Source: an uncultured beta proteobacterium
GTDB lineage: Bacteria > Pseudomonadota > Gammaproteobacteria > Burkholderiales > Burkholderiaceae_C
DNA: 38,444 nucleotides
NCBI GenBank assembly: GCA_903914615.1
Contig: CAIWPS010000465.1
Coordinates: 1-38,444 of the forward strand
Reading direction: 5' to 3'
Shown: positions 8,244 to 36,800 of the stretch, piece by piece
Layout: every line of letters begins with the position of its first letter
Position numbering within the stretch: position 1 is the stretch's first letter
Notes under the pieces: generated by a model
What the model was told of the DNA's origin: nothing
The model's database searches: none
Seen by the model: the letters and a program-made list of their open reading frames with translations, nothing else
Made by a program: the position numbers and the translations under genes

Positions 8244-12962
<4,719 letters not shown>

Positions 12963-17927: not shown

Positions 17928-19274
17928 TCAGGGCCTGCCGAAGAGGTGCACGCCCGAGACCTGGCCCGCGCCCGTGAGCAGGATGGTCGAGAAGATGAGC
18001 CCGCTGGCGTTGTTGCCGACGAAGTTGCCGCCGAAGACGCTGAGCGTCGGCAGGAAGCCCGGGCACAGGTTGCAGACGCCGCTGCTGTAGTAGCCGTTGA
18101 ACTTGCCCGAAGCCGTGTTGGCGTCGTAGGTGGCACTGCCGTTCAAGGCCGTGAAGCTCAGGCCGCCGATGTCGAAGCCCAGGTTGTTGAGCTGCACGCC
18201 GCGGTTGACGAAGTCGACGGCGATGGTGCCGGCGACGTTGCTCATCGGCCCGCCCAGCGGCGTGAAGGTGGCCGTGCCGATGGTGGGCATCTGGCGCGTG
18301 GCGTCGGCCATCACGTAGTCGACGTTGCCCAGCGCCGGCGCGACGACGGCCGCGCCGCCCACCGTCACCGAGGCGCTGGCGTTGGCGCCGGACAGCCACG
18401 TGCCCCAGTAGGCCGTGGTGGCGCCGTCGGAGAGCAGCGCCCTGCCGGTGGCCGCGGTGCTGGCGCCCAGGCGCTGGGCGTAGAAGTCGCTGCTGGTGCC
18501 CACGCTGTTGAGCTGGCCGGCGCTGGCGCCGCTGCCGGCGCTGTACTTGTCGGCCCGCCATTCGTTGGTGCTGGCGATGCTGAGCGTGCCCGCGACGGGG
18601 TCGGTGAAGCTGTAGGACAGGCCGACCGCCAGGTTGGGCAGGAAGGTCGAGCCCGGCTGGTTGACGCTGTAGCCGTTGACGGCGCTCAGCGCCGACACGT
18701 CGGGCGCCGGCGTGCTGATGGCCACCACCGACTGGCCGGCGGCGATGGCCGCCAGCGCGCGGTTGACGTCGATGGCGAAGCTGGCCTTGCCGCGGTCCAG
18801 CGCATTGCCGGCGGCGGCCGCGATGACGGCGCGCACCGTGACGCCGCTGCCCAGGTTGGCATCGGGCATGGCCTGGCGTTCGGCGGCAGCCAGGGCGAAG
18901 CCGGGGTCGAGCTCGGCGGCACGGCGGAACTGCTCCTTGGCCTCGACGAAGCGGCCCTGGTCCTTGAGGTCCAGGCCCTGCGAGTAGGCGCGGAAGGCCT
19001 CGACGTTGGTGGTCTGGAAGCGCTCGATGCGCGCGCGCACGTCGGGCGGCAGCTGGTCCAGCGAGATGCCGGCCGAGCGCAGGATGCCGAAGGTCACGGC
19101 CTTCTGGGCGCGGAAGAGGGCGCTGATGTCGCCGCGTTCGCTGACCACACCCAGGCTCTGCGCGCTGCGGCTGTCGACGATGGCGCCTTCGAGGGCGAAG
19201 CCCTGGGCCTGCGAAGGCGCCGCGGCCACGGCCGCGAGCAAGGCGACGAGGGGAGGAAGGGCGCGCTTGATCAT
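17928..19274 (-). CDS. Secreted protein: CsgG-like C-terminal half, TPR, TbpB-like beta domain
   Basis: It has 448 residues and no recognised name. A signal peptide ends PSQA (residue 23), with no lipidation Cys. The mature start QGFALEGAIVDSRS, the following LFRAQKAVTFGIL helix and TTNVEAFRAYSQGLD to about residue 110 read like the second half of CsgG/FlgO-type domains, which the preceding gene lacks. One TPR-like unit (DQGRFVEAKEQFRRAAELDP) follows. From about 250 to the end is a beta-rich domain with TAYWGTWLSG, GTATFTPLGG, VAGTIAVDF and a final GGNFVGNNASGL...VHLFGR, resembling the TbpB-like/transferrin-binding beta domain. A CxxC pair (Cys401, Cys404) lies in GVCNLCPGF. The start overlaps the upstream stop by 1 nt (TGATG). 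It is the last gene of the operon. Probably periplasmic or surface exposed. Confidence 0.8.
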   Translation of the reverse strand: MIKRALPPLVALLAAVAAAPSQAQGFALEGAIVDSRSAQSLGVVSERGDISALFRAQKAVTFGILRSAGISLDQLPPDVRARIERFQTTNVEAFRAYSQGLDLKDQGRFVEAKEQFRRAAELDPGFALAAAERQAMPDANLGSGVTVRAVIAAAAGNALDRGKASFAIDVNRALAAIAAGQSVVAISTPAPDVSALSAVNGYSVNQPGSTFLPNLAVGLSYSFTDPVAGTLSIASTNEWRADKYSAGSGASAGQLNSVGTSSDFYAQRLGASTAATGRALLSDGATTAYWGTWLSGANASASVTVGGAAVVAPALGNVDYVMADATRQMPTIGTATFTPLGGPMSNVAGTIAVDFVNRGVQLNNLGFDIGGLSFTALNGSATYDANTASGKFNGYYSSGVCNLCPGFLPTLSVFGGNFVGNNASGLIFSTILLTGAGQVSGVHLFGRP

Positions 19275-20434
19275 CACTGCACCTCGAAGTTGCCGACCAC
19301 GACCTTCTCGGCCCGCATCAGCCTGCCCGAGCGCACCGCCGAGGCGGTGTCGGCCAGGCCGCTGTCGCCGAGCTTGGCCTCGTTGACCAGCAGCTGCACC
19401 TTCTCGCGTTCCAGCACCTTCAGGCCCGGCACCTTGCTGAGGTCGGCGATGATCATCGCCGCCAGCCCCTTGGCCATGGCGCGGTAGGCGTCGCTGCCCT
19501 GGTTGACGAAGGCCTGCACGGCGATGCTGCCGGGCTCGGGCGGGCTGGCGCTGACCTGGCTCTCGCGCTGCACGGCGACCGCCACCTCCTGGCGCAGCTG
19601 TGCCGACGACAGCAGCGTCAGCAGCTTGGGCACCTCGCGCGCGGCCGCACCCTTGGGGTCCTGGCGGGCGTACTGCTGCAGCAGCTGCAGCGCGCCGGCG
19701 TTGTCCTCGCGGCGCAGCGCGATCAGGCCCAGGTAGTAGGGCACCAGGGTCTCGCCCGGCGCGCGCTCGGCGACGAGGTTCAGGGCCTGGGTGGCGGTGG
19801 CGTCGTCGCCGGCGCCGAAGGCCTCGATGCCGGCCTTCAGCTGGGCGCCGATGTCGTTGCGCACGCGCGCCGCGTCGGCCTGGTTGCCGGCGTCGTCGAG
19901 CAGGGCCGGCGTGCGCGCCAGCGTCTCGGGGCGGGCGGCGGCGGCGGTCCAGCGGAAGGCGCGGCCCTTGAGCACGGCGCGGCCGCCCTGGTATTCCAGC
20001 ACCGCCTCGCCTTCGCCGATGCGGCCGTACAGGCCCGCGGGCTGGTCGCAGCCGGCGCCGCAGTCGTGCAGCTTCAGGTAGCCGTTGGTGCGGATGCTGC
20101 GGCCCGGAAGGTCGACGGCCCACTCGGCGCCGCCGGCATTCAGGCGCAAGCCGCCGGCCTGCCAGCCGAGTCGGTGCGCGGCGCCGAATTCCAGGCGGCT
20201 GGAAGGCGGCAGGTCGACCAGCGCCCCGTCGGCCGTCCGCACCTGCAGATGGCCGTCGGCGCCCGTGCGCAGCGCCTGTGCTGCCAGCGTGCTGCCGGGG
20301 CGCGCCGGCGCGCCGTCGATCTGCGCCTCGCCCTGCGCCTGCAGCACGCGCACGGCAACGGGGTCGGCCTGCGCCGCGGCCGCGGCCAGCGACAGGGCGG
20401 CCCAGGCCGCCAGCTTCGAATGCGTGTGGAGCAT
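19274..20434 (-). CDS. Periplasmic FecR-domain protein with truncated CsgG-like domain
   Basis: It has 386 residues. A signal peptide ends AAQA (residue 23), with no lipobox, unlike CsgG itself. A FecR-type beta domain (about 25-150) shows GEAQIDG, LRTGADGHLQVRTADGALVDL and, near its end, LHDCGAGCD (Cys125, Cys129). A helical, TPR-like segment (about 185-290) follows, then a CsgG/FlgO-like alpha/beta region (about 302-386) with AVQAFVNQGSD, GLAAMIIADLSKVPGLKVLE and RLMRAEKVVVGNFEVQ. The protein ends there, where the family normally continues with more beta strands; that continuation is at the start of the next gene. ATG at 20434 has GAGGA 8 nt upstream, overlapping the stop of the gene before. 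Probably a periplasmic assembly or scaffold factor for the adhesin; the role is inferred only. Confidence 0.8.
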   Translation of the reverse strand: MLHTHSKLAAWAALSLAAAAAQADPVAVRVLQAQGEAQIDGAPARPGSTLAAQALRTGADGHLQVRTADGALVDLPPSSRLEFGAAHRLGWQAGGLRLNAGGAEWAVDLPGRSIRTNGYLKLHDCGAGCDQPAGLYGRIGEGEAVLEYQGGRAVLKGRAFRWTAAAARPETLARTPALLDDAGNQADAARVRNDIGAQLKAGIEAFGAGDDATATQALNLVAERAPGETLVPYYLGLIALRREDNAGALQLLQQYARQDPKGAAAREVPKLLTLLSSAQLRQEVAVAVQRESQVSASPPEPGSIAVQAFVNQGSDAYRAMAKGLAAMIIADLSKVPGLKVLEREKVQLLVNEAKLGDSGLADTASAVRSGRLMRAEKVVVGNFEVQ

Positions 20435-20442
20435 GGGGCGGG

Positions 20443-20447
20443 TCCTC
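20443..20447 (-). promoter_or_regulatory. Ribosome-binding site of the FecR-CsgG gene
   Basis: GAGGA on the minus strand, 8 nt before the ATG at 20434, overlaps the TGA stop (20448-20446) of the outer-membrane protein gene. It fixes the start and indicates coupled translation. Confidence 0.7.
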
Positions 20448-21816
20448 AGTACTGGTAGCGGAGCTTGAGCTGCGCGCTGCTGCGCCGGGTCTCGAACAGC
20501 TGCTGGTTGGAGTGCGTGTTCGACCACAGCAGGTCGCCGCGCAGCGACCAGCGTGCGTCCAGGGCGTAGTTGGCGACGATGTCGGCGCCCACCGAGTGGT
20601 CGTGCCGCACGGTGCCCAGCACGATGTCAGGGCCGCCGAAGACCCGTTGGTAGAACGTGACGCCGAAGGTGATGCGCAGGCGCTCCAGCGGGCTGAAGGC
20701 GCCGAACAGGCGCAGCAGCGAGAGCTGGTGGCCGAGGTCGTCGCGCAGGCGCAGGTTCTGTTCCTGCGTGTAGCTCAGGCGCACGCCGCTGCTGGGCGCG
20801 CCGGCGAGTTCGGCGTCGGTGTAGGTGAGCACGGCACCTGCCGTGCTGGTGCGTGCGTCGAGCACCTCGTTGGCGGCGTTGTAGCGCATCTCGCCGTACT
20901 GGGCGAAGGCCTGCAGTGCCAGCGCCGGGCCGAAGCTGAAGTTGGCTTCGCCCTGGGCCTGGGCGGTGTCGCGGTAGCGGTTGCCGCCGACCTGCAGTTC
21001 GTTGCCGCCCAGCGTCAGGCGCCACAGCGCGCCGGCGCCGAGCTGGGTCAGGCCGATGTAGCCGCCGGCGGTGCCGAGATCGTAGGGGTGCTGGACGAAG
21101 TTGCTGCGCTGGTCGAGGTCGGCGCCGGCGAACACCGACAGCCGGTTGCTCACCCGCATCACCTGCTGACCGCCGACGGCGAGTTCGCCATAGCCGTCGC
21201 CGACCTGGCGCGACGACGCATCGAGCGGAAAGGCGTTGCCCGCGAGGTCGATGTTGTCGTGGAAGGTGCCGCCGTTGACGTTGCTGTCGTGGCCGAAGCC
21301 GGCTTCCGCATACAGCCGGGCCACGGCGCGCCCGCCCGCGTCCTCGCGCACCTGCATGGCCTGCAGGAAGCCGGCGATGCTGGCGCGAACGCCGGCCGGC
21401 GGGTTGTAGCGCAGCACGAACTCGAATTCGGCGCGGGCGCGGGTGAACTCGCCGAGCAGGAAGTAACCGCGCGCCAGTTCCAGCCGCGCGCGGTCGTTGG
21501 CGGGCACGGCGGCGAGATGGCGTTCCAGCGCCAGCAGGCCTTCGGCGACATGGCCGGTGTTGATCGCCGCCACGCCGTAGGGGAAGTCGAAATGGACGTC
21601 GCCGATGAGCTGCGGGTTGGCCTGCGCGGTGGCCCAGGCGGCGTCGAACTGGCTGGCCTCGACCTGGCGGCGGATGTCGTCCAGCGGCGCTGCCGACGCC
21701 GTGCCAGGCAGCCCGGCCAGCTGCAGGGCCAGCGCCGCGGCGGCGGCCAGGCCGGCAAGGCGGCCGCGCTGCGCGGCCGGGCGACGCGGCGCCTGGCGGG
21801 GAGGGGGGTGGGTCAT
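20446..21816 (-). CDS. TPR plus outer-membrane beta-barrel protein, Slam/DUF560-like
   Basis: It has 456 residues. A long signal peptide (about 42 residues, positively charged start, ends GTASA) is followed by two or three TPR helices (about 45-160, with DRARLELARGYFLLGEFTRA and FEFVLRYNPPAGVRASI). A beta-barrel of about 290 residues begins with AGFGHDSNVN and ends in the aromatic LKLRYQY typical of BAM substrates. TPR followed by GxDSNVN and a 14-strand-size barrel is the plan of surface lipoprotein assembly modulators (Slam), which move TbpB-like proteins across the outer membrane; other TPR-porins share it. It lies 31 nt after the giant adhesin gene and 11 nt before the FecR-CsgG gene. It is not a TpsB transporter: I see no POTRA domain. 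Start at 21816 is chosen for the signal peptide; there is no strong ribosome-binding site. Confidence 0.8.
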   Translation of the reverse strand: MTHPPPRQAPRRPAAQRGRLAGLAAAAALALQLAGLPGTASAAPLDDIRRQVEASQFDAAWATAQANPQLIGDVHFDFPYGVAAINTGHVAEGLLALERHLAAVPANDRARLELARGYFLLGEFTRARAEFEFVLRYNPPAGVRASIAGFLQAMQVREDAGGRAVARLYAEAGFGHDSNVNGGTFHDNIDLAGNAFPLDASSRQVGDGYGELAVGGQQVMRVSNRLSVFAGADLDQRSNFVQHPYDLGTAGGYIGLTQLGAGALWRLTLGGNELQVGGNRYRDTAQAQGEANFSFGPALALQAFAQYGEMRYNAANEVLDARTSTAGAVLTYTDAELAGAPSSGVRLSYTQEQNLRLRDDLGHQLSLLRLFGAFSPLERLRITFGVTFYQRVFGGPDIVLGTVRHDHSVGADIVANYALDARWSLRGDLLWSNTHSNQQLFETRRSSAQLKLRYQY

Positions 21817-21847: not shown

Positions 21848-24800
21848 TCAGGGGGCGGCAGTGCCGTTGCGCGCCGGCTCGTTGCCCTGGATGAGCCGCC
21901 TGAGCTGCGGGTCCAGGGTGATGAGCGGCAGGCGCTGCAATGCCGGCAGCGTGATGCGGCTGCTGTCGGCCGAGAGGGCGGCCGCGATCTCGGCGGCCAG
22001 GCCGTCGATGCCGCGTGGCGCCGGGGACGGCGCATCGGCGCTGGCCAGGCGCGGCGGCGCCTGTGCCAGCGTGGCGCCGACGCTGTTCAGTTCGTCCTGC
22101 GCCCGCTGCTTTTCTGCCGGGTCGACCTGGACCACGAAGCTGACGTTGCCGCCACCCGTGCCGACGCCGGTGTCGGTGTCGGTCAGGCGCGCCGGCTTGG
22201 GCAGCACGATGAGCAGGCCGGCCACGTAGTGAAGGTCGTAGTTGGCGGCGCTGCCGGTCGAGAACACCGCCCCGGTGGGCAGCAGCTGGTAGATCGAGCC
22301 GCCCGGCGCGTTGGCGCTGCCCGCCGGCACCGCCTGGATCACCGAGGCGATGTTGTCGCCGTTGACCAGACCGCCGCCGGAGATCGAGAAATCGAAGCTG
22401 GTCGGGTTGGGCGCGTCGCTGTAGCGCACAACGGTGTTGGAGGCCACGGTCAGCGGCCGCGGCGTGACGGTCAGCGTGCCGGCGGCGTAGCTGATGCTGT
22501 AGTTGGCTGGGCTGAAGGTGCCGCCGCTGGCACTGCCGGCGGTGATGGCATAGGGCGAGCCGGCGACACCGGCGGCCGCGGCGGCGCCGGTGCTGGACAG
22601 CGCGACCTGGCCCAGCGTGTCTCCGGTCACCAGGCCATTCGCGGTGAACTCGCTGCCGCTGAAGGTGACGACGTCGCCGTAGACCTTGGTCTGCGCGTTG
22701 GCGCTGATCTGCAGGGGCTTGGGCAGGATGGTGGCGGTCGTCGAGGCGGTGTTGGCGGCCAGCGTGTAGTCGGCGGCGTCGGCACCCGACAAGGTGAGGC
22801 CCGTGACATTCACGGTCTTGCCCGCGCCGGCATTCTTGTCGGCGAAGGCCGCGTTGCCGCCGAGCGTGAGGGCGTCGCCGGCGATGCGGTTGTCGCTGTA
22901 GCTGACGCTGGCCGCGGTGCTGCCGTCGTAGACCCTGTCGGCCGCCACCGCCGTGGCCAGCAGCGGCCGTGGCGCGATGTTCACGCTGAGGCTGCTGCCA
23001 CTGGTCAGCGTGTAGTTGGCGGCGTCGGCGCCCGCCAGGCCAAGGCCGGAGAGCGTCACCGGCTTTGCGTTGCCGACCTGCTTGTCGGCCATCGTGCCGG
23101 TCAGGCCGCTGGTGGGCACGCTGACGGCGTCGCCGGCGATGGTGCCGCTGAGCGTGCTGGCCTGGCTGTTGATGGCGACCTGCGTGGTGCCGTCGTAGAC
23201 GCGGTCGACGGTGCCCAGCCCCAGCAGCACCACCGGGCGCGGCGCGATGTTGACGCTGACGCCGACGGTGCCGGTGATGACGTAGTTGGCGGCATCGGCG
23301 CCGGTCAGCGTCAGGCCGGCCAGGGCCACGGGCTTGTTGCTGCCGGCGTTCTTGTCGACCATCACGCCGGCGCCGATGCCGGTGGCGGGCAACTGCAGGG
23401 TGACGTCGTCGCCGGCCAGCTTGTTGTCCAGGCCCACCGTGCCCAGCGGGCCGCTGGCCTGCAGGCTGACCGCCGTGGTGCCGTCGTAGACGCGGTCGAC
23501 GGCGCTGATGCCGGTGACGCCGGTGACGTTCAGCGGCCGCGGCGTGATGCTGGCCGTGGTGCTGGCGGTGGTGGCGGTGAGGGTGTAGTTGGCGGCGTCG
23601 CTGCCCGACAAGGTGATGCCGCTGACGAGCACCGGCTTGGCGTTGCCGACGTTGCGGCTGTCGCCGAACTGCGCCGTCTGCGAGAAGCTCACGTTGTCGC
23701 TGCCCAGGACGCCGCCGGTGGCGGCGGTGACGGGTGCGGTCAGGGTGCCGTCGTAGACCTTGCTGCCGCCGACGTAGCTGGCCGTCAGCGGCCGTGGCGT
23801 GATGCTGGCGGTGGCGCTGCCGGTGGGGTCGAGCAGCGTGTAGTTGGCGGCGTCGCTGCCGGTGAGGGCCCCGGCCGTGACGGCGATGGCCTTGCCGGAG
23901 CCGACGTTCTTGGCGCCGCTGCCGGTGAAGACGCCCGCGCCGCCGAGCGTGACGCTGTCGGAGCCGATGATGTCGGCCGAGGTGGCCGTGACGGTGGCGC
24001 TGGCGCTGCCGTCGTAGACCTTGTCGACGCCGGTGTAGACGGCGGTGACGGGCCGCGGCGCGATGCTGACGGTGACGCCGGCAGTGCCGGTGATCTGGTA
24101 GTTGGCAGCGTCGGCGCCGCTCAGCGCCAGGCCGGTCAGGGCCACGGCCTTGTTGCTGCCGACGTTCTTGTCGGTCATGACGCCCGAGGTGAAGCCGCTG
24201 CCGGGCAACTGCACGCTGACGTCGTCGCCCGGCACCTGGTTGGTCAGCGTGGCCGTGCCGCCGATGCCGCTGGCGACCACGGTGACGGCCAGCGTGCCGT
24301 CGTAGACGCGGTTGACGGCGGCCAGGCCGGTGAGGCCGGCCACGCTCAGCGGCCGCGGCGTGATGCTGCCGTAGGTGGTGGCGGTATCGGCGAGCAGGGC
24401 GTAGTTGGCGGCATCGCTGCCGCCCAGGGTGATGCCGCTGACCTGCACCGGCTTGAGGCTGCCGACGTTCTTGCCGTCGCTGAAGCTGGCGGTCTGCGAG
24501 AAGGTGACGACGTCGCCGCCGAGCACGCCGCCCAGCGTGGCGGTGACGGGCGCGGTGGTGCTGCCGTCGTAGACCTTGCTGCCGCCGTTGTAGCTGGGCG
24601 TGAGCGGCCGTGGCGTGATGCTGGCCGTGGTGCTGCCGGTGGGGTCGAGCAGGGTGTAGTTCGCGGCATCGCTGCCGGCGAGCGTGCCGCCGCTGACGGC
24701 CACGGCCTTGGCGTTGCCGACGTTCTTGGCGCCGCTGCCGGTGTAGCTGCCGGCGGCGCTGATGCTGACGCTGTCGCCGGCGATGAAGTCGCCCGTGCTC

Positions 24801-27800
24801 GCCGTCACGCTGGCGGCCGTGGTGGCGTCGTAGACCTTGTCGACGCCGGTGTAGACCGCGGTGACGGGCTTGGGCGCGATGTTGACGGTGACGCCGGTGG
24901 CCGCCGCGACGACGTAGTTGGCGGCATCGGCACCGGCGAGCGTGAGCCCGGCCACGACCACCGGCTTGGCGCTGCCGACGTTCTTGTCGGCCATGGTGCC
25001 GGTGGTGGTGCCCGAGGTGGTCTGCGCGACGGTGACGACGTCGCCGGCGACGAGGTCGGCGGCGTTGGGGCTGATGGTGCCGCTGGCCGTGACGTTCACC
25101 GCCACCGTCGTGCTGCCGTCGTAGACGCGGTCGACGGCGCTGACGCCGGTGAGGCCGTTGATGCGCAGCGGCTTGGGCGTGATGGTGCCGCTGGTGCTGG
25201 CGCTGTTGGCGACCAGCGCGTAATTGGGCGCGTCGCTGCCGCCCAGCGTGATGCCGGTGACGGCGATGAGCTTGGCCGTGCCGACGTTCTTGCCGTCGGT
25301 GAAGACGGCGGTGTCGGACAGGGTGAGCTGGTCGCCGCTGACCATGCCGACCACGCTGCCGCTGACGGGCGCCGCGGCCAGGCCGTCGTAGACCTTGCTG
25401 CCGCCGCTGAAGCTGGCGGTGACCGACCTGGGCGTGATGCTGGCGCTGGCCGTTCCTGTGGGGTTGACGAGGCTGTAGTTGGCGGCGTCGCTGCCGGACA
25501 GCGCGGCGCCCTGGACCGCGATGGCCAGGCCCGTGCCGACGTTCTTGCCGGCGCTGAAGACGCCGGACCCGGCGATGCCGACGTTGTCGAAGGCGTAGAA
25601 GCCGGCCGAGGTGCCGATGACGGTGGCAGCGGCGGTGCCGTCGTAGACCTTGTCGACGCCGGTGTAGCTGGCGGTGACGGCCTTGGGCGTGATGTTGACG
25701 GTGACGCCGCTGGTCGCGGCGATGGTGTAGTTCGCGGCCGACGCGCCCGACAGGCCGAGGCCGGCCACGGCCACCGGCTTGGCGGCGCCGACGTTCTTGT
25801 TCGCCACCGTGCCCGTGGTGGTGCCGGCGGCGGGCACGCTGACCTGCACGTCGTCGCCGGCAATGATGTCGCCCGGCGCGGGCGCCACCGGCCCGCTGGC
25901 CGTGACATTCACGGCCACCGTGGTGCTGCCGTCGTAGACACGGTCGATCGCGGTCACGCCCGTGAGCCCGACCAGGGTGATGGGTCGCGGCGAGATGGTG
26001 CCGGTGGTGCTGACCGCGTTCACCAGCAGCGCATAGTTCGCGGCGTCGCTGCCCGACAGCGTGATGCCGCTGACGCTGATGGTCTTGCCCGTGCCGGCGT
26101 TCTTGTCGGCGTAGGTTGCGGTCTGGCTGAAGGTGACGACGTCGCCGCCGACGATGCCGGCGCCGGTGGCCGTGACGCTGGCCGCGGTGGTGCCGTCGTA
26201 GACCCGGCTGCCGCCGGTGTAGCCGGGCGTGATGAGCTTGGGCAGGACGATGCCGGTGGCGCTGCCTCCGGTGCCGTTGACGAGGGCGTAGTTGGCCGCG
26301 TCGCTGCCGCTCAGGGTGGCGTTGACGTCGCCGATGGCCTTGCCGCTGCCGGCGTTCTTGGCGCCGGCGCCGGTGAAGACGCCGCTGCCGCCGATGCTCA
26401 CCACGTCACCTGCCAGGATGTCGGCCGAGCTGCCGACGACGGCCACGTTGGTGGTGCCGTCGTAGCTGCGGGTGACGCCGCTGTAGGCGGCGGTGACGGG
26501 TTTCTGCGTGATGTTGACGGTGATGCCGGCCGAGCCCGCCACCTGGTAGTTGGCGGCGTCGGCACCGCTGAGCGTGAGCCCGGTGACGGCCACCGCCTTG
26601 CCGTTGCCGGCGTTCTTGTTGGCCATCGTGCCGGTGGTCTGGCCGGCGGCGGGCACGCCGATGCTGACCTGGTCGCCGGCGATGATGTCGGCGCTGTTCG
26701 GGGTGAGCGTGACGCCGCTCGGGATGTTCACGACCACGGTGGTCGTACCGTCGTAGACGCGGTCGGCCACCGTCACCCCGGCCAGGCCGGCGACCGTGAT
26801 GGGCCGCGGCGTGATACCGCCGCTGGTGCTGGCGGTACTGGCCGTGAGCTGGTAGTTGGCCGCGTCGGCGCCGGTGAGGGTGATGTTGCTGACCGTGATG
26901 GCCTTGCCGCTGCCGACGTTCTTGCCCCCGGCGTCGGTGAAGGCCGCCGTCTGCATGAAGCCGACGACGTCGTTGGCAACGATGCCGGCGGTCTGCGCAC
27001 TGACCAGCGCGCTGGTCGTGCCGTCGTAGACCTTGCTCAGGCCGACGTAGCTGGGCGCGATGAGCTTGGGCGTGATGCCGGCGGTGACGCTGGCGGTGGT
27101 GTTGACGAGGGCGTAGTTGTTGCGCGCCGCGCCGGTGAGGAAGCCGCCGCTGACGGCCACCGTCTTGCCGCTGCCGACGTTCTTGTCGCCGAACACGCCG
27201 GTGGCGCTGATGCCGACGGCGCCGGTGTCGATGGCCAGGATGTCGCTGCTTGTGGCCGTGATGGTGGCTGCGGTGAGGCCGTCGTAGACCTTGCCCGCGG
27301 CGGCATAGCTGGCGCTGAGCGAGCGCGGCGTGATGTTGACTGTCAGGCCCGTGGCGCCGACCAGCGTGTAGTTGGCTGCCGAGCTGCCGCTGATGCCCAG
27401 GCCCGTCACCTGCACGTCCTTGCCGGTGCCGACGTCGCGGGTGAGCATGGTGCCGCTGCTGATGCCGTTGGGCGGCAGGGTGACCGAGATGCTGTCGCCC
27501 GCGATCACGGCGCTGGCGTCGATGGCGGCGTTGGCGACGTTCAGGGCCACCGCGGTGGTGCCGTCGTAGACGCGGTTCTGCGCCACGATGCCGGTGACGC
27601 CGATGGGCCGTGGCGAGATGGTGCCGGTGGTGGTGGCGGTGGTGGCCGTGAGCGCGTAGTTGGCCGCGGCCGGGCCGGCCAGGGCGATGTTGCTGATGGC
27701 GATGGCCTTGCCGGTGCCGGCTGCGCCGTCGACGCTGTAGACCGCGGTCTGGGTCAGCGTCACCACGTCGCCGGCGACCCAGTCGGGCGAGCTCGGCAGC

Positions 27801-30800
27801 ACCTGCGCCGCGAGGTCGCCCACGCCGTCGTAGACGCGGGTGACGCCGCTCCAGCTGATGTTGACCGGCTTGGCGGTGATGCTGGCCGTGGTGCCTGCCG
27901 TCGTGTTGACGAGGCTGTAGTTCGCCTGGTCGGCGCCGCCGAGCGCGATGTTGGTGACGCTGACCGGCTTGTTGCTGCCGACGTTGCGCCCGTTCAGGCC
28001 CGTGAAGATGGCGCTTTGCGTGAAGCTGACGTTGTCGCCGGCGATGATGTCGGCCGAGCTGCCCGCGACCTGCGCCGTGATGCCGCCGTTGTAGGCGCGG
28101 TCGACGCCGGTGTAGGTGGCGGTGAGCGGCCGCGGCGTGATGTTGACGGTGATGCCGCTGCCGGCCGCGTCGATGCTGTAGTTGGCGGCGTCGCTGCCCG
28201 TCAGGGTCAGGCCCGTCACGGTCACGACCTTGTTCGTGCCGACGTTCTTGTCGGCGACGGTGCCGGCGGTGAGACCGCCGCCCGGTTGCGCGACAGCGAC
28301 GTTGTCGCCGGCCACGAAGCCGGTGGAGGTCACCGCGCTGGCGTTGACGGCCACCGCGGTGGTGCCGTCGTAGACGCGGTCGACGCCGGCGATGCCGCTG
28401 AAAGTGACGGGCTTGGGCGTGATGTTGGCGCTGGTCGTCGACGTGGTGGAGGCCAGCGTGTAGTTGCCGGCGTCGGCACCGGCCAGCGCGACGTTGCTGA
28501 CGGTGATGGTGGTGCCGTTGTTGACGTTCTTGCCGGTGGCGCCGGTGAAGCTGGCGCTTTGCGTCGAGGTGATGGCGTCGCCGCCGACGATGCCCGATGC
28601 GTAGGCATTCAGCGTCACGCTGGCGCTGGTGGTGCCGTCGTAGACCTTGTTGACGCCGGTGTAGGCAAGGCTCGCAAGGGGCTTGGGCGTGATGCTGGCG
28701 GTCGTGGTGCCGGTGCCGACGCCGACCAGGGTGTAGTTGCCGGCGTAGGTGCCGTACAGCGCGTCGTAGTTGACGGTGACCGGCTTGTTGCTGCCGACGT
28801 TCTTGGCGCCGCTGCCGGTGAAGGTGGCGTAGCCGTAGTAGCCGTAGTAGCCGCCGTAGAGGTTGCTGTAGAAATAGACGCCGTTGTTGGCCAGGTCCAC
28901 CGCCAGCAGGTCGGTCGATGATGCCGAGACCTGGGCGTAGGTGCTGCCGTCGTAGACCTTGTCGATGCCGGTGTAGGTGGCGGTGACGGGCTTGGGCGTG
29001 ATGTTGACAGTGACGCCGTTGGTTCCGGCGAAGGTGTAGTTGCCGGCGTCGGCGCCGCTGAGCGTGAGGCCGGGCACCGAGACGGCCTTGCCGGTGCCGA
29101 CGTTGCGGTCGACCATGGTGCCGGCGACGGTGCCGTTGGTGCCGCTGGGCACGTTGACGCTGACGATGTCGCCGGCGATCAGGCCCGAAGTGTCGACGCT
29201 GGCATTGGCGACGTTGACCGACACCGTGGTGGTGCCGTCGTAGACGCGGTTGACGGCGGCGATGCCCGACACCGGCACCGGCTTGGGCGAGATCGTGCCG
29301 TAGGTGCTGGCGCCGTAGTAGGTGGTGTTGAGCGTGTAGTTGGCGGCGTCGGTGCCCGAGATCTGGGCGCCGGTGACGCTGATGGTCTTGGTCGTCGGGT
29401 TGCCCGATGCGTCGTAGGCGACGTTCTTGTCGCTGTAGGTGGGCGCGTTGTAGCTCAGCAGGAGGTTGTCGCCGCTGTACTTGCCAGACAGCGACACGGT
29501 CGCGTTGGCCGCGGTGGTGCCGTCGTAGACCTTGTCGGTGCCGCTGGCGCCGCCGATGCGGCTGACGTACATGTAGACGGTGGCCGGCGTGATGTTGACC
29601 GACACCGGCCCCGCCGCGGCCGCGTAGTTGGCGGCGTCCGGGCCCAGCAGCACGACGCCCGAGACGCTGACCGGCTTGTTGCTGCCGACGTTCTTGTCGG
29701 CCATGGTGCCGGTCAGCGTGGTGTTCTGCACCGTCACCAGGTCGCCGGCCACCAGGCCCGAGATCACGCCCGATGCCGTGCCCACCTGCACCGAGGTGCT
29801 GGCGTTGTAGGTCTGGTCGGGCGCAGTCAGCGAGTTCACGACCACGGTCTTGGGCGTGATGTTGACGGTGACGCCGTTGATGCCCACGACCTGGTAGTTG
29901 CCGGCGTCGGCACCGGTGAGTGCGACGCCGCTCACCGTCACCGGCTTGGCCGTGCCGACGTTCTTGCTGGCGACGGTGCCGCTGCCCACGCCCGACAGGT
30001 CCACCGCGACCTGGTCGTTGCCGATGATGCCGGTGACGCTGCTGTTGGCGGTGGCCGTCACCGCGACCACGGTGGTGCCGTCGTAGGCGCGGTCGGTGGC
30101 GGCGAAGCCGCCGGCCGTCAGCGGCGCCGGCGTGATGCTGGCGGTGGTGTTCGTGCCGGCACCCAGGCTGTAGTTGGAGGCCTTGCCGTGGACGCCGTCG
30201 CCGAGGGTGTAGCCGGTGACGGTGACGGTCTTGTTGGTGCCGACGTTCTTGGTGTCGAAGGTGGCGGTGACGTTGCCGATGTCGACGCTGAGGTCCTCGC
30301 CCGCCACCAGGCCCGTGGGCTGCGCGTTGCCGATGACGGTGGCCGTGGTGGTGCCGTCGTAGACCTTGTTGGCGATCACGCCGGCCAGGGTCAGCGGCCG
30401 CGGCGTCACCGTGAGGGTGGCGCTGCCGGTCACCGTGAGGTCGTAGCCGTTCTGCACCGAGTAGATGCCCGCGGCATTGACGGCGTAGCTGCCGACGTCG
30501 GGCGAAAGCGCCGCTGTGAAGATGCGGCTGGGGTAGGCGATGGGGCCGCTGGCGCCGGCGATCTGCGCGTTGCCGAAGGACGTGGTGCCGTCGTAGGTCT
30601 TGCTGGCGTCGGCCAAGGTCAGCGTCAGCGGCGTCAGGAAGGTCGACAGCAGCGGATCGGTGTAGCCCTGGTAGATGCGCCAGGTGGTGCCACCGCCGCC
30701 GGCGCTGGCCAGGCTCCAGTTCGCGAAGCTGGAGGCCTGCTGCATCTGCGCCGGGGTCAGGCCGCTGCCGCCGGCGCTGCTGGCCTGGCCGGTGGCGGTG

Positions 30801-33800
30801 AGGTCCCAGAAGCTGTCCGCGACGGTCAGGCTCGCGCCGTTGTTGCGCTGCGCCACCAGGCCACCGGCAAAGAGGGCGCTGCCGCCGGTCACGGTGACGG
30901 CGCCGGTGGCGTAGGTGCGCGCGATGCTGGCGTTGGCGTAACCCACCAGCCCGCCGGCCCGCAGCTGGCCCCTGGCGTTGGACAGGGTGACGCTGCCGCT
31001 GGCGTAGGCGTCGGACAGGGCCACGCTCGCCAGGCTGTTGCCGCTGCCGGAATTCAGGTAGCCGACGAGGCCCCCGGCATAGACGTTGGTGTTGGTGGAC
31101 AGGGCGACGGCAGCGGTCTGGCTGACCGTGCCGGTGGCATAGCTCTGCGCCAGCGCGTTGCCGCTGGCCGCCGAATAGCGGTTGTAGTAACCGACCAGCC
31201 CGCCGAGGTAGGTGGTGGCGTTGATGCCCAGCCCGGTCACGGCACCGGTGGCGTAACTGGCGCCGATGCCGGTGATGCCGTTGAAGTTGCCCGCCAGCCC
31301 GCCCACGTACTGGGTGCCGCTGACGGCGCCGGTGGCGTAGCTGTTGTTGATGTCCGGCGAACTGGCGTAGCCGCTGTAGTACTGGCCGACGAGACCGCCG
31401 GCATAGGTGCTGCCGCTGACCTGCCCGCTGGCGCGGCTGTTGACGATGCCGCCGTAGTAGCCACCGGAGCCGGTGCTGTAGTTGCCCACCAGGCCGCCGG
31501 TGCTGCTGCCGCCGCTGACGTCGCCGGTGGCGCCGCTGTCGTTGATGGCGGCGCCGGCGGCGGCGTTGAGCGTGGGCAGCGCCGTGCCGACCAGACCACC
31601 GACATTGCCGCTGTTGGCACCTGCCGTGACCTTGCCGCTGGCGAAGCCGCCGGTGATGCCGGCACCGGTGAGCGAGCCCACCAGGCCACCCACGGCCGAC
31701 GCGTTCGCCCCGGCGGTGACGTTGCCGCTGGCCGAGACATTGCTGAGCGCCGAGGTCGCGTAGGCATAGCCCACCAGGCCGCCGACGGTGTTGGTGCCGC
31801 TGACGGCGCCGCTGGCGCTGCTGCCGCTGATGCCGCCGTAGTAGAAGTAGGCCACCAGGCCGCCGGCGTAGTAGCGCCCCGACACCGTGCCGCTGGCCGT
31901 GCTGTTGCTGATGACGGGGTTGTTGGACCCGGAATTGCCGTAGAAGTAGCCGACCAGGCCGCCGGTGTAGTGGCTGCCGCCGTTGGCATTGCTGCTGTCC
32001 AGCCCGGTGACGTTGCCGGTGGCCGTGCTGCCGCTGATGCTGCCGTAGTAGTTCAGTCCGACGAGGCCGCCGACGTAGGCGTTGGGCGCGTCCGCGACCA
32101 CGGTGCCGCTGGCCTGGCTGCCCTGGATGAACTGGCTCGTGTAGTTGTAGCCGACGCGGCCGATGAGGCCGCCCACGTTGACGTAGTTGCCGGTGGCCGT
32201 GACGTTGCCGCTGGCGCTGGCGCCGGTGTAGCCGTAGCCGTCGCTCCAGCCCGTCAGGCCGCCGACGTAGCTGGTACCGCCCACCGCGCCGCTGGCGGAG
32301 CTGTTGCTCACCGTGCCGACCCCATAGGCGTAGCCGATGAGGCCGCCGTCGTAGGTGCCGCCGCCTACCTTGGCGGCGGTGCTGCTGTTGGCCACGTTGC
32401 CGTAGTAGGCGTAGCCCACCAGCCCGCCGACCTGGTTGCTGCCCGAGACGGTGGCCCCGGTGTAGGTGCCGGTGTCCAGCGTGCCGCCATTGGGCGTGAA
32501 GGTGCCGGCCAGGCCGCCGGTGCTGCTGCCGCCGCTGACCGCGCCCGCGGCGCTCACGCGCAGCATGCCGCCGTACTGCGAGAAGGATCCGACGAGCCCG
32601 CCCACGCTGCCGCTCGTGGTGGTGCCGGTGACGATGCCGGTGGCCGCGCTGTCGCGCAGCTGGCCGCTGCCGTTGCTGCTGCCGATGAGGCCGCCGACGG
32701 TCGACGCGCCCGAGGCCGAGCCGCTGGCGCTGGCGTTGGCGATGTCGCCGTTGCTGGTGTAGTAGCCCACCAGTCCGCCGACCGAGCTGCCCCCGGCCAC
32801 CGTGCCGCTGGCCGTGGCGCGCAACAGGCCGCCGCTGGACTGGTAGCCCACGAGCCCGCCGGTGTAGCTGCTGCTGCCGGCGGTGACGCTGCCGGTGGCG
32901 CTGACATCGGTCAGCGTCGCCGATCCTGCCGCCTGCCCGATGAGGCCACCGGCGTAGCTGTTGGCGCCGCCGGTGACGCTGCCGCTGGCGCTGAGGTTGC
33001 TGAGCGTGCCGGTGCCGCCGGCCAGGCCGATGAGGCCGCCGACGTAGCTGTTGCCGCCGCTGACGGTGCCGCTGGCGCTGCTGTTGCTGACGGTGCCGTT
33101 GGTGTAGCCCGCCAGGCCACCGGCGGCGGCACCGGAGCTGACGTTGGCGCTGGCCGCGATGCCCACGATGCCGGCCGTGCCGCCCATGTAGCCGACCACG
33201 CCGCCGGCGTAGTTGATCCCCGACACCGAACCGGCCTTGACGGTGATGGCCTTGCCGGACGAGGCATCGGTGACGAGGTCGGCGTTGGACAGGTAGTAGC
33301 CGACCAGGCCGCCCGACCAGTAGCCGCCGCTGACGTTGCCATCGGACTCGCTGTTGACAATGCCGCCGCCGAGGCGGAAGTCCCCGGCCAGGCCGCCGGC
33401 GTAATTGCTGCCGGAGGCGGTCGTGGTGGTGACGTTGCCGGTGGCCAGGCTGTCGCTCACCTTGCCGCTGCCCACGGCATAGCCGACCAGGCCGCCGGCG
33501 TCGCCGGCGGCGTTGACATTGCCGCGTGCCGTGCTGAAGGTGATGTTGCCGTTGCTGTTGAAGTAGCCGACGAGGCCCCCGGTCTCGCTGCCGCCGGAGA
33601 CGCTGCCGGTGGCGCTGCTGGTGGTGATGCTGCCGCCGGTGGCATAGCCGACCAGCCCGCCGACGTAGCCCGACGTGGCGTTGCCGGTGACGGCACCGCT
33701 GGCCGTGCTGCCGGTGACGCTGCCCCCGGCCTGTGCAATGAGCCCGCCGACGCTGCTGCCGCCCGTGACCGTGCCGCTCGCGCTGCTGCCGGTGACGTTG

Positions 33801-36800
33801 CCGGCGATGTAGCCGGCCAGGCCGCCGGCACTGCCCGTGGCCGACACCGTGGTGGCGACCGACACGCCGGTGATGGCCGACGCGCCGGCGCTGTAGCCGA
33901 CGACGCCGCCGGCCCAGCTGCCGCCACTGACCGTGCTGCCCTTGACGGTGATGGCCTGGCCGCTGGAGGCATCGGTGACCAGCGCCGTGGCCGAGCTGTA
34001 GTAGCCGACCAGGCCGCCGGTGTTGCTGCCGCCGCTGACGCTGCCGTCGGCCTCGCTGTTGACGATGCCGCCGGCGAGGCGGAAGTCGCCTGCCAGGCCG
34101 CCGACCGAATAGCTGTAGTTGGTGGCCGTGACGGTGCCCGTGGCCTTGCTGTTGGTCAGCACCCCGGAACCCGTGGCGTAGCCAACCAGGCCGCCGGCAT
34201 CCCCCGCGCTCGTGACGGCGCCCGTGGCCAGGCTGTTGGTGAGCTTGACCCCGCTGTTGAAATAGCCGACCAGGCCGCCGGTCTCGCTGCCGCCGCTGAC
34301 CGCCCCCGAGGCGACCCCGGTGTCGATGCTCGTGCCGCTGGCATAGCCGACGAGCCCGCCGACGTAACCGCTGTTGGTGCTGTTGCCGACGCTGCCGCTG
34401 GCGCTGCTGTTGAGCACCGTGCCGCTGCCGGCCGCCTCGCCGATGAGGCCGCCGACGTTGTTCTTGCCGCTGACCTTGCCGCTGGCGCTGCTGCCGGTGA
34501 CGTTGCCGCCGGTGCGCCCGGCCAGGCCGCCCGCGGTGCCGGTGGCCGTGACGTCGACGGCGACGCTGATGCCGGTGATGCCGGCGGTGCCGCTGCTGTA
34601 GCCCACCAGACCGCCGACATAGCCGCCGCCCGAAACGCTGGCCGACTTGACCTGGCTGGTCGTGATGTCGCCGTTGCCGCCGTAGTAGCCGACCAGGCCG
34701 CCGACATAGCCGCCGCCGCTGACCAGGCCGTCGGCCTCGCTGCCGCTGATGCCGCCGCCGTGCGAGGCATAGCCGATCAGGCCGCCGGTCGACCCGTTCG
34801 TGCTGCTGTTGCTGACGCTGCCGCCGGCCAGGCTGGTGCCGACGACGGCGGTGTTGCCGGCGGTCTGCCCGACCAGGCCGCCCACATAGCCTGCGCCCGA
34901 GACGGCACCGCTGGCACTGCTGCCCGTGACGTTGCCGCCGGTGTAGCCGGCCAGGCCGCCGGCATTGCCGGTGGCCGTCACCGTGCTGGCGACCGACACG
35001 CCGGTGATCGCCGACGTGCCGTTGCTGTAGCCGACGACGCCGCCGACCCAGCTGCCGCCCGTGACCGTGCTGGCCTTGACCGTGATGGCCTTGCCGCTGG
35101 CCGCGTCGGTCACCAGCGCCGTGGCCGAACTGTAGTAGCCGACGAGGCCGCCGGTGTTGCTGCCGCCGCTGACGTTGCCGTCGGCCTCGCTGTTGACGAT
35201 GCCGCCGGTGAGCTGGAGGTTGCCGGCCAGGCCGCCAGCGGCGTAGTTGCTGCCGGCCGCGATGGTGCCCGTGGCCTTGCTGTTGGAGAGCACCCCGCCG
35301 CCGGTGGCATAGCCGACGAGGCCGCCGACGTCGCCGGTGGCGGTGACGTTGCCCGTGGCAGTGCTGTTGGTGAGCTTGGTGCCGCCGTTGAAGTAGCCGA
35401 CCAGGCCGCCGGTCTCGCTGCCGCCGCTGACCGCTCCCGTGGCGTTGCCGGTGTCGATGCTGGCGCCGTTGGCATAGCCGACCAGGCCGCCGACATAGCC
35501 GTTCGTCGTCGTGTTGCTGACGGCGCCGCTGGCGCTGCTGTTGAGGACCGTGCTGCTGCCATTGACGTAGCCGACCAGGCCGCCGACGTTGCCGGTACCG
35601 GTGACCGTGCCGCTGGCGCTGCTGCCGGTGACGTTGCCCACGGTGTAGCCGGCCAGGCCGCCGACGCTGCCGGTGCCGCTGACGTTCGCCGCCACGCTCA
35701 GGCCGGTCAGCGCCGCAGTGCCCACGCTCTGGCCGACGATGCCGCCGACATAGCTGCCGCCGCTGACGCTGGCGCCGGTATAGGTGATGGCGAGGTTGCT
35801 GCCGGCGTTGGTGACGAGGTCGACCGGCGAGGTGTAGTAGCCGACGACGCCGCCGGTGTAGTTGCCGCCGCTGACCGTGCCGCTGGCACTGCCGTTGGAG
35901 AGGCCGCCGCCGAGCCGGAATTCGCCGACCAGGCCGCCGACGCTGTCGGCATTGGCCGCCGCGGTGACGTTGCCGGTGGCCGAGGCGTTGGAGAGAGAAC
36001 CCGAACCCGTGGCGTAGCCGATGAGCCCGGCGACGTCGTTGTTGCCGGTCGAGGACACGTTGCCGCTGGCGCTGACGTTGCTGATGCTGCCCGTGCCGCC
36101 GCTGTAGTAGCCGATGAGGCCGCCGGTCTCGTTGCCGCCCGTGACGTTGCCGGAGGCACTGGAATTGCCGATGCTGATCGTGCCGTTGACGGCCCCGATG
36201 AGACCGCCGACATTGCCCGTGACGGCACTGTCCGTGACCGCGCCCGCGGCCGTGCTGCCGTTCACGCCGCCGTTGCCAGCCACCGACCCGGCCAGGCCCC
36301 CGACCGTGCCGCCGGCGCTGCTGACGCTGCCGCCTGCCGTGGCGCTGCTGATGCCGCTCCCGTTGTAGGCGCCCACGAGCCCGCCGACGTAGAAGTTGCC
36401 GGTGCTTCCGTTGGCACGCACCGTGGCCGAGACGGTGCCGATGGCCGAGACGCTGCCGAGCGCAGCCCCTGCCTGCAGCCCCACCAGGCCACCGACGTAG
36501 GCCGTGCTGGTATTGGTGTCGCCCGAGACGTTGCCGGTAGCGCTGCTGTTCGCGATGCCCAGGCTGCCCGCGGCGCCTGCGAAATAGCCGGCGACGCCGC
36601 CGGCATAGACGCCACCCGAACTGGCATCCACCGCCGCGACCGCGGCGCCGCTCTTCACGTTGCTGAGCGTCGTGCTGCCGTCGGCATAGCCGACGACCCC
36701 GCCGGCATAGCGCCCGCCCGTCACCGACGAAGTCGCGTCCAGCGTCAGGTTGGCAACGGTGGCGTTCTTCGTCACCGCGAAGAGGCCACTCTGGAACGAG

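Follow-up and report, generated by a model that had tools for sequence, protein, structure and literature searches.

Two halves of a CsgG/TolB-N-like domain on neighbouring genes with predicted signal peptides in at least two classes of Pseudomonadota

Can one protein domain be divided between two proteins that are exported separately? Two adjacent genes, A and B, raise this question in a 38,444-nucleotide stretch of DNA from an uncultured beta proteobacterium (the window, meaning the whole stretch analysed). They close a gene row on the minus strand, to which all window coordinates below refer: a giant TPS-type exoprotein, a TPR-plus-barrel protein, A and then B. Gene A (19274..20434) encodes 386 residues with a signal peptide, a FecR-like beta domain (residues 26-172), a TPR region (residues 184-294) and the N-terminal half of a CsgG-like domain (residues 297-386). 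This half, the first part of a CsgG/TolB-N-like domain, is encoded at 19277..19546, and its last strand is EKVVVGNFEVQ. The gene starts with ATG at 20434, and the protein ends in RLMRAEKVVVGNFEVQ before the TGA at 19276..19274. Gene B (17928..19274) encodes 448 residues comprising a leader (residues 1-24, 19203..19274) that is a signal peptide by inspection, a strand-strand-helix segment continuing the domain (residues 26-70, 19065..19199), a TPR unit (residues 91-130, 18885..19004), a middle part and a C-terminal barrel (residues 330-448, 17931..18287). It starts with ATG at 19274..19272, and the protein begins with MIKRALPPLVALLAAVAAAPSQA, the end of which is the leader/mature boundary, followed by QGFALEGAIVDSRS; the segments LFRAQKAVTFGIL and TTNVEAFRAYSQGLD, quoted in the first-pass annotation, are present in B. 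The coordinates agree with the 1-nt overlap described there, as the stop codon of A and the start codon of B have one base in common in the TGATG junction (19272..19276). A Shine-Dalgarno-like GAGGTG for B lies at 19280..19285, where it doubles as the codons for the last E-V of A.

The window sequence and profile searches confirmed the division of the domain across this junction. The end of A matched positions 4-96 of 210 of the Pfam CsgG profile PF03783 (E 6.9e-8; 32.5 bits against a cut-off of 20.8), so that the earlier statement that A ends inside a CsgG-type domain holds. B alone had no match to PF03783 up to E 10 in the Pfam profile search. Its start matched positions 337-435 of NCBIfam TIGR04510 (E 5.4e-8), which is only a local resemblance because the 31.8 bits compare with a cut-off of 400. 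The best PF03783 stretch also stopped at positions 97-99 in all six intact single-chain relatives compared, two of which had a second stretch; the Pfam break in A alone is therefore no proof of a split. We built a single-chain profile of 311 positions from seven relatives (L044, L045, L074, L075, L076, L027 and L028). In 12/12 pairs, the A proteins covered positions 16-24 to 176-179 of this profile (E 2e-29 to 1e-25, with Z set to 1000) and the B proteins positions 173-190 to 287-308 (E 3e-19 to 3e-10, same Z). Such complementary and nearly abutting ranges in every pair indicate a likeness to single-chain relatives beyond chance, and they bear out the proposal that mature B opens with the missing strands, the helix and the TPR.

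Homologues in which the two halves are fused do exist, and the halves are contiguous in L044, L045, L074, L075, L076, L172 and L174. In profile-profile comparison with five fused lipoproteins, the end of A aligned with fused columns 55-217 (99.6%, E 6.3e-25) and the start of B with columns 231-336 (98.8%, E 8.9e-17). Around the split point, fused relatives touch the LpoB, FlgO and TolB models. The profile comparisons thus indicate that A and B carry two halves of one domain, and the break lies in the beta-hairpin between the last strand of A and the first strand of mature B, GFALEGAIVDS. When the half profiles were extended to their ends, the joint between the halves was estimated at about 9-11 residues for seven close fused lipoproteins; the loop of five more distant single-chain proteins was measured poorly, with estimates of 2, 1, -8, -6 and none. 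From the 9-11-residue joint, it follows that the stop codon, start codon and signal peptide of the split pairs occupy the loop position of the close fused forms. A is full length for the split family, but against the fused relatives it holds only half of the domain.

No CsgG chain was listed among the solved structures matched in profile searches, one of which gave the best 60 of 81 matches. A possible link between the break and the first membrane hairpin of CsgG was dropped; the passages found in two CsgG papers do not address it.

The split recurs at one point across at least two classes of Pseudomonadota. We collected 22 A/B pairs, including that of the window, ranging from the genus of the window to other classes of the phylum, and all 22 had the same break, with A stopping there and B carrying the remainder. 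This number excludes near-copies, namely L055-L057, whose junctions repeat those of L049, L048 and L052, as well as the second B of G813 and L117/L175 (G1099), where the preceding ORF had a very weak A-half match (E 0.016). L175 (minus-strand coordinates 8544-10428 in G1099) has its B-half match 52 residues into the ORF; it may represent a remote split or one that arose independently. Scanning named genomes gave nine loci, seven of them full relatives (Rubrivivax species, strains AAP51 and AAP65, and metagenome bins) and two matching only a short TPR stretch (residues 97-143). In all seven, A ended directly after VVVGNFEV or a closely similar sequence, and B with a diverged leader started immediately. 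Whole-genome searches added a further split pair in the genus of the window (G719), three pairs in a second family within the same order (G434, G462 and G813), and ten pairs outside the order in six genomes, four of which lie outside the class. A ended 0-4 residues past its half in 21 of the 22 pairs and 17 residues past it in L164. The A-half profile was made from 12 of the 22 A proteins, so for these the agreement of the ends is in part built in, and the remaining 10 provide an independent check. In every pair, the B half was preceded by a leader of 23-48 residues, and B started between 14 nt before and 30 nt after the end of the stop codon of A, with start codons chosen by us.

A/B pairs are patchily distributed. 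Strong B matches were found in 2/150 and 6/399 genomes of the family and 3/399 of the order, and split pairs in 3/369 genomes of the class and 5/398 of the phylum, each count including the window's own. The class and phylum scans yielded 12 B-half matches outside the window at E <= 1e-16, comprising 10 split pairs, two fused forms and no orphans. Among 58 loci examined, eight were split, 38 had both halves in one ORF (many A halves being weak and partial), 11 had a B-half match deep in a long ORF with no detectable A half, and one (L117) was ambiguous. A tree of the 22 split and 12 fused forms did not establish a single origin of the split but was compatible with one (p-AU 0.53), and the unconstrained tree required two changes.

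B carries a start codon and a ribosome-binding site of its own. A Shine-Dalgarno match of at least 4 nt preceded B in 20 of 22 pairs, compared to 21% of 3530 control ATGs, and GAGGTG lay within 20 nt upstream of the B start in 8/9 close pairs. Signal peptides were judged by eye and with a simple hydropathy and A-x-A scan. All 22 B leaders have a hydrophobic stretch, and 21 have K or R in the first 12 residues, L035 being the exception. On this inspection, each chain likely has its own signal peptide and hence is exported separately. In L047 (5863-6006), the B leader carries a tandem repeat of about five residues (ALRTS), giving a signal region of 48 residues.

The two halves are also strongly conserved. 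Among nine close pairs, the mean pairwise identity in A was 0.84 for the half domain, its best conserved part, against 0.53 for the FecR-like domain and 0.61 for the TPR region. In B, the N-terminal module (half domain 0.72, linker 0.79 and TPR 0.80) was conserved above the middle part (0.49) and the barrel (0.59). Leader identity was 0.26 and 0.29.

We modelled the window chains with AF2, each from an alignment of eight rows, looking for separate confident closed folds, and neither half was confident alone. The FecR-like and TPR parts of A mostly reached pLDDT 77-93, compared to only 31-51 for residues 291-386. In B, residues 21-70 had pLDDT 26-37, the barrel 66-92, and the middle part was poorly predicted; the predicted elements were strands at 26-33 and 40-48 and a helix at 50-67, followed by the TPR helices. 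The low pLDDT of the lone halves fits a mutual need, and the shallow alignments may give the same result. Foldseek searches with the A model returned FecR/PupR-like and TPR structures, and CsgG was not among the 50 matches listed. The B barrel had no Pfam barrel match; in Foldseek it matched fHbp, HphA/hemophilin and LbpB at E <= 0.001 (fHbp/HphA at 3.5e-5) and TbpB at 1.2e-3.

We consider it quite probable that, in A and B, evolution has fixed a natural split of one CsgG/TolB-N-like alpha/beta domain, and that this domain is reassembled as a joint between exported proteins. The fused forms and the common break support the first-pass reading of one fold divided over two chains that would be separately exported and translationally coupled. 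Since the same division point occurs in very different proteobacteria, the two proteins probably click together outside the cytoplasm. Both chains would pass through Sec, signal peptidase would free the first strand of B, and the halves would come together in the periplasm as a single domain, which would link A, with its FecR-like and TPR parts, to B with no covalent bond. Translational coupling may provide matching amounts of A and B. The most likely role would be that of a plug-and-socket joint between separately exported proteins.

Several other readings have to be weighed against the reassembled joint. The halves might not pair with each other, each chain instead closing its own fold by self-association or strand swapping, so that two new stand-alone domains had arisen. 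The AF2 models, which show no confident closed fold, were made for single chains and leave such partners outside their reach, and the A half has most helices of the domain and might tolerate the loss of an edge. This reading is nevertheless unlikely, given that A and B are adjacent in all pairs, that no orphans occurred among the strong B-half matches and that conservation stays high in both halves right up to the break. It is more improbable still that the B half docks on another complete CsgG-like protein, or that both chains join a CsgG-like ring, with the A half having a separate partner. Some genomes do have complete single-chain relatives as well (L044 in G434, L045 in G462 and L172 in G1248), and CsgG itself is described as a nonameric channel (PMC7304575). 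The strict pairing of the A and B genes and the coupling of close relatives by overlapping codons and a ribosome-binding site speak against such other partners, and no membrane-spanning hairpins were recognised adjoining the break.

Decay of the half domains after gene fission, leaving remnants with no structural role, has very little probability. Fission did occur, as the single-chain relatives attest, but no other part of A is as well conserved as its half domain, and at least two classes have the break at one and the same point. The least credible account is that one real gene is split by a programmed frameshift or by an error of sequencing or assembly. In its favour, the assembly that holds the window is a draft of 866 contigs. 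The break recurs at the same point in 22/22 independent loci, although the length of the overlap or gap varies and the leader that separates the halves has diverged, which rules out a frameshift or an assembly error. The first-pass annotation had argued against a simple frameshift from the signal peptide.

The neighbourhood of the pair points to a possible cargo role for B. The TPR-plus-barrel protein upstream of A (about 20446..21816) is a Slam-like protein with a TPR and an outer-membrane barrel. PF04575 did not match it or two close relatives at E <= 1, whereas hhalign aligned its TPR and barrel with SlipAM-matching proteins of G462 and G813 (98.7%, E 1.7e-16). In these two genomes, the gene adjoining the pair follows B and scores above the cut-off for SlipAM (PF04575; E 4.9e-19 and 4.1e-12), and the B proteins of G813 and G462 are above the cut-off for TbpB_B_D. 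Relatives of the window Slam-like protein precede A in all seven named loci. Published accounts of type 11 secretion cargo describe C-terminal barrels and varied N-termini (PMC12282271, PMC8406197). The fHbp-like barrel and the Slam-like gene before A suggest such cargo; here and in the close kin of the window, the Slam-like outer-membrane protein probably has B as its cargo. In the window and close kin, the rebuilt domain would then hold B at A before, during or after barrel transfer. Further upstream, the giant TPS-type exoprotein (21848..38335; TPS domain at E 4.2e-34, many YDG/MBG repeats) has at least 5495 residues; its TPS domain is matched from profile position 26, and its N-terminus lies near the contig end and may be incomplete.

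Two further types of locus carry CsgG-linked genes. On contig C460 of the window's own genome (L102, 1081-5838), a caspase-like (Peptidase_C14)/TPR/FlgT_C/FlgO/CsgG protein is the first of a row, followed by a small complete CsgG-TPR protein and then by what looks to the eye like a TpsB-type transporter; this may be a second export locus linked to CsgG. Near or on the contigs of the G462 and G434 split pairs (L098, 9071-16836; L100, 3428-12548), genes that are FHA-like, PP2C-like and kinase-like by eye adjoin a long protein, which the A profile touches, and a small CsgG-TPR protein that is complete.

The distant pairs revealed a second architecture. In five of the ten (L164, L166, L169, L171 and L173), a Slam-like gene directly precedes A. 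No Slam-like neighbour was in view in L163, L165, L167, L168 and L170, three of which lie on contigs of 3.6-5.4 kb and two of which have 15.6 and 19.0 kb in view. A profile of the window-type barrel had no match at E <= 0.01 in any distant B protein, all ten included. The five pairs with no Slam-like neighbour in view combine a short A (ORF of 229-290 aa) with a B of 286-397 aa ending in a likely helical stretch with a second-to-last cysteine in 5/5. A is cut by the contig end in L163, and its start resembles a lipoprotein in L165. Both architectures are present in each of G1085, G1384 and G1248. As the second architecture shows no Slam neighbour and no distant B matched the barrel profile, the Slam link is not general, and the split domain, not the barrel, is the constant feature. 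We somewhat favour the broader view that the pairs form an old cross-class Pseudomonadota family of periplasmic split-domain joints, in which a signal peptide at the hairpin creates a plug and a socket linking varied exported modules. With the same leaning, the sockets would be FecR-like or short (one of them lipoprotein-like), and the plugs would be barrel-bearing cargo or short helical proteins with a penultimate cysteine. The two to three paralogous pairs per genome in G1085, G1384 and G1248 would, on this slightly preferred view, have to discriminate between partners, and the G813 socket may serve two plugs. In G813 (L101, 1839-6688), one A indeed lies between two B genes, which share 177 identical codons and 180/180 identical residues over the 180 codons of the half domain and TPR; elsewhere, the leaders agree in 2/21 residues and the following stretch in 5/30, and the C-terminal parts differ as well. 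One socket for two plugs would explain this pattern, as may a recent duplication with recombination or an assembly effect.

The pair shares features with several known systems. Like the CsgG/FlgO/LpoB/TolB-N-like periplasmic domains (PF03783, PF17680, PF13036; TIGR02800), it carries an A end that reaches the PF03783 cut-off, but the domain is spread over two exported chains, whereas the known members we encountered are single chains. With type 11 secretion (Slam/DUF560) cargo, it appears to share the Slam-like neighbour, the fHbp/hemophilin-like C-terminal barrel and a diverse N-terminus (PMC8406197, PMC12282271). In A/B, however, the N-terminus is a split-domain half plus TPR with a FecR-like partner, and neither FecR nor CsgG occurs in the main texts of these two papers.

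In chaperone-usher pili, donor-strand complementation supplies an incomplete exported fold with the piece that it lacks, which comes from a second exported chain. A/B would resemble this principle, but the fold is another one, two strands, a helix and a TPR come from one fixed neighbour gene, and there are single-chain ancestors or relatives. We found no published description of such a split in the literature searched, in which subscription journals were thinly covered. If the halves assemble, the pair would be a split domain that arose by natural evolution, is compatible with export and has been retained in more than one bacterial class. Such a case would illustrate how the fission of a gene, together with the gain of a signal peptide, can turn a loop into a subunit interface, and it would offer a testable model for the periplasmic holding of type 11 cargo and possibly orthogonal split pairs usable in the periplasm.
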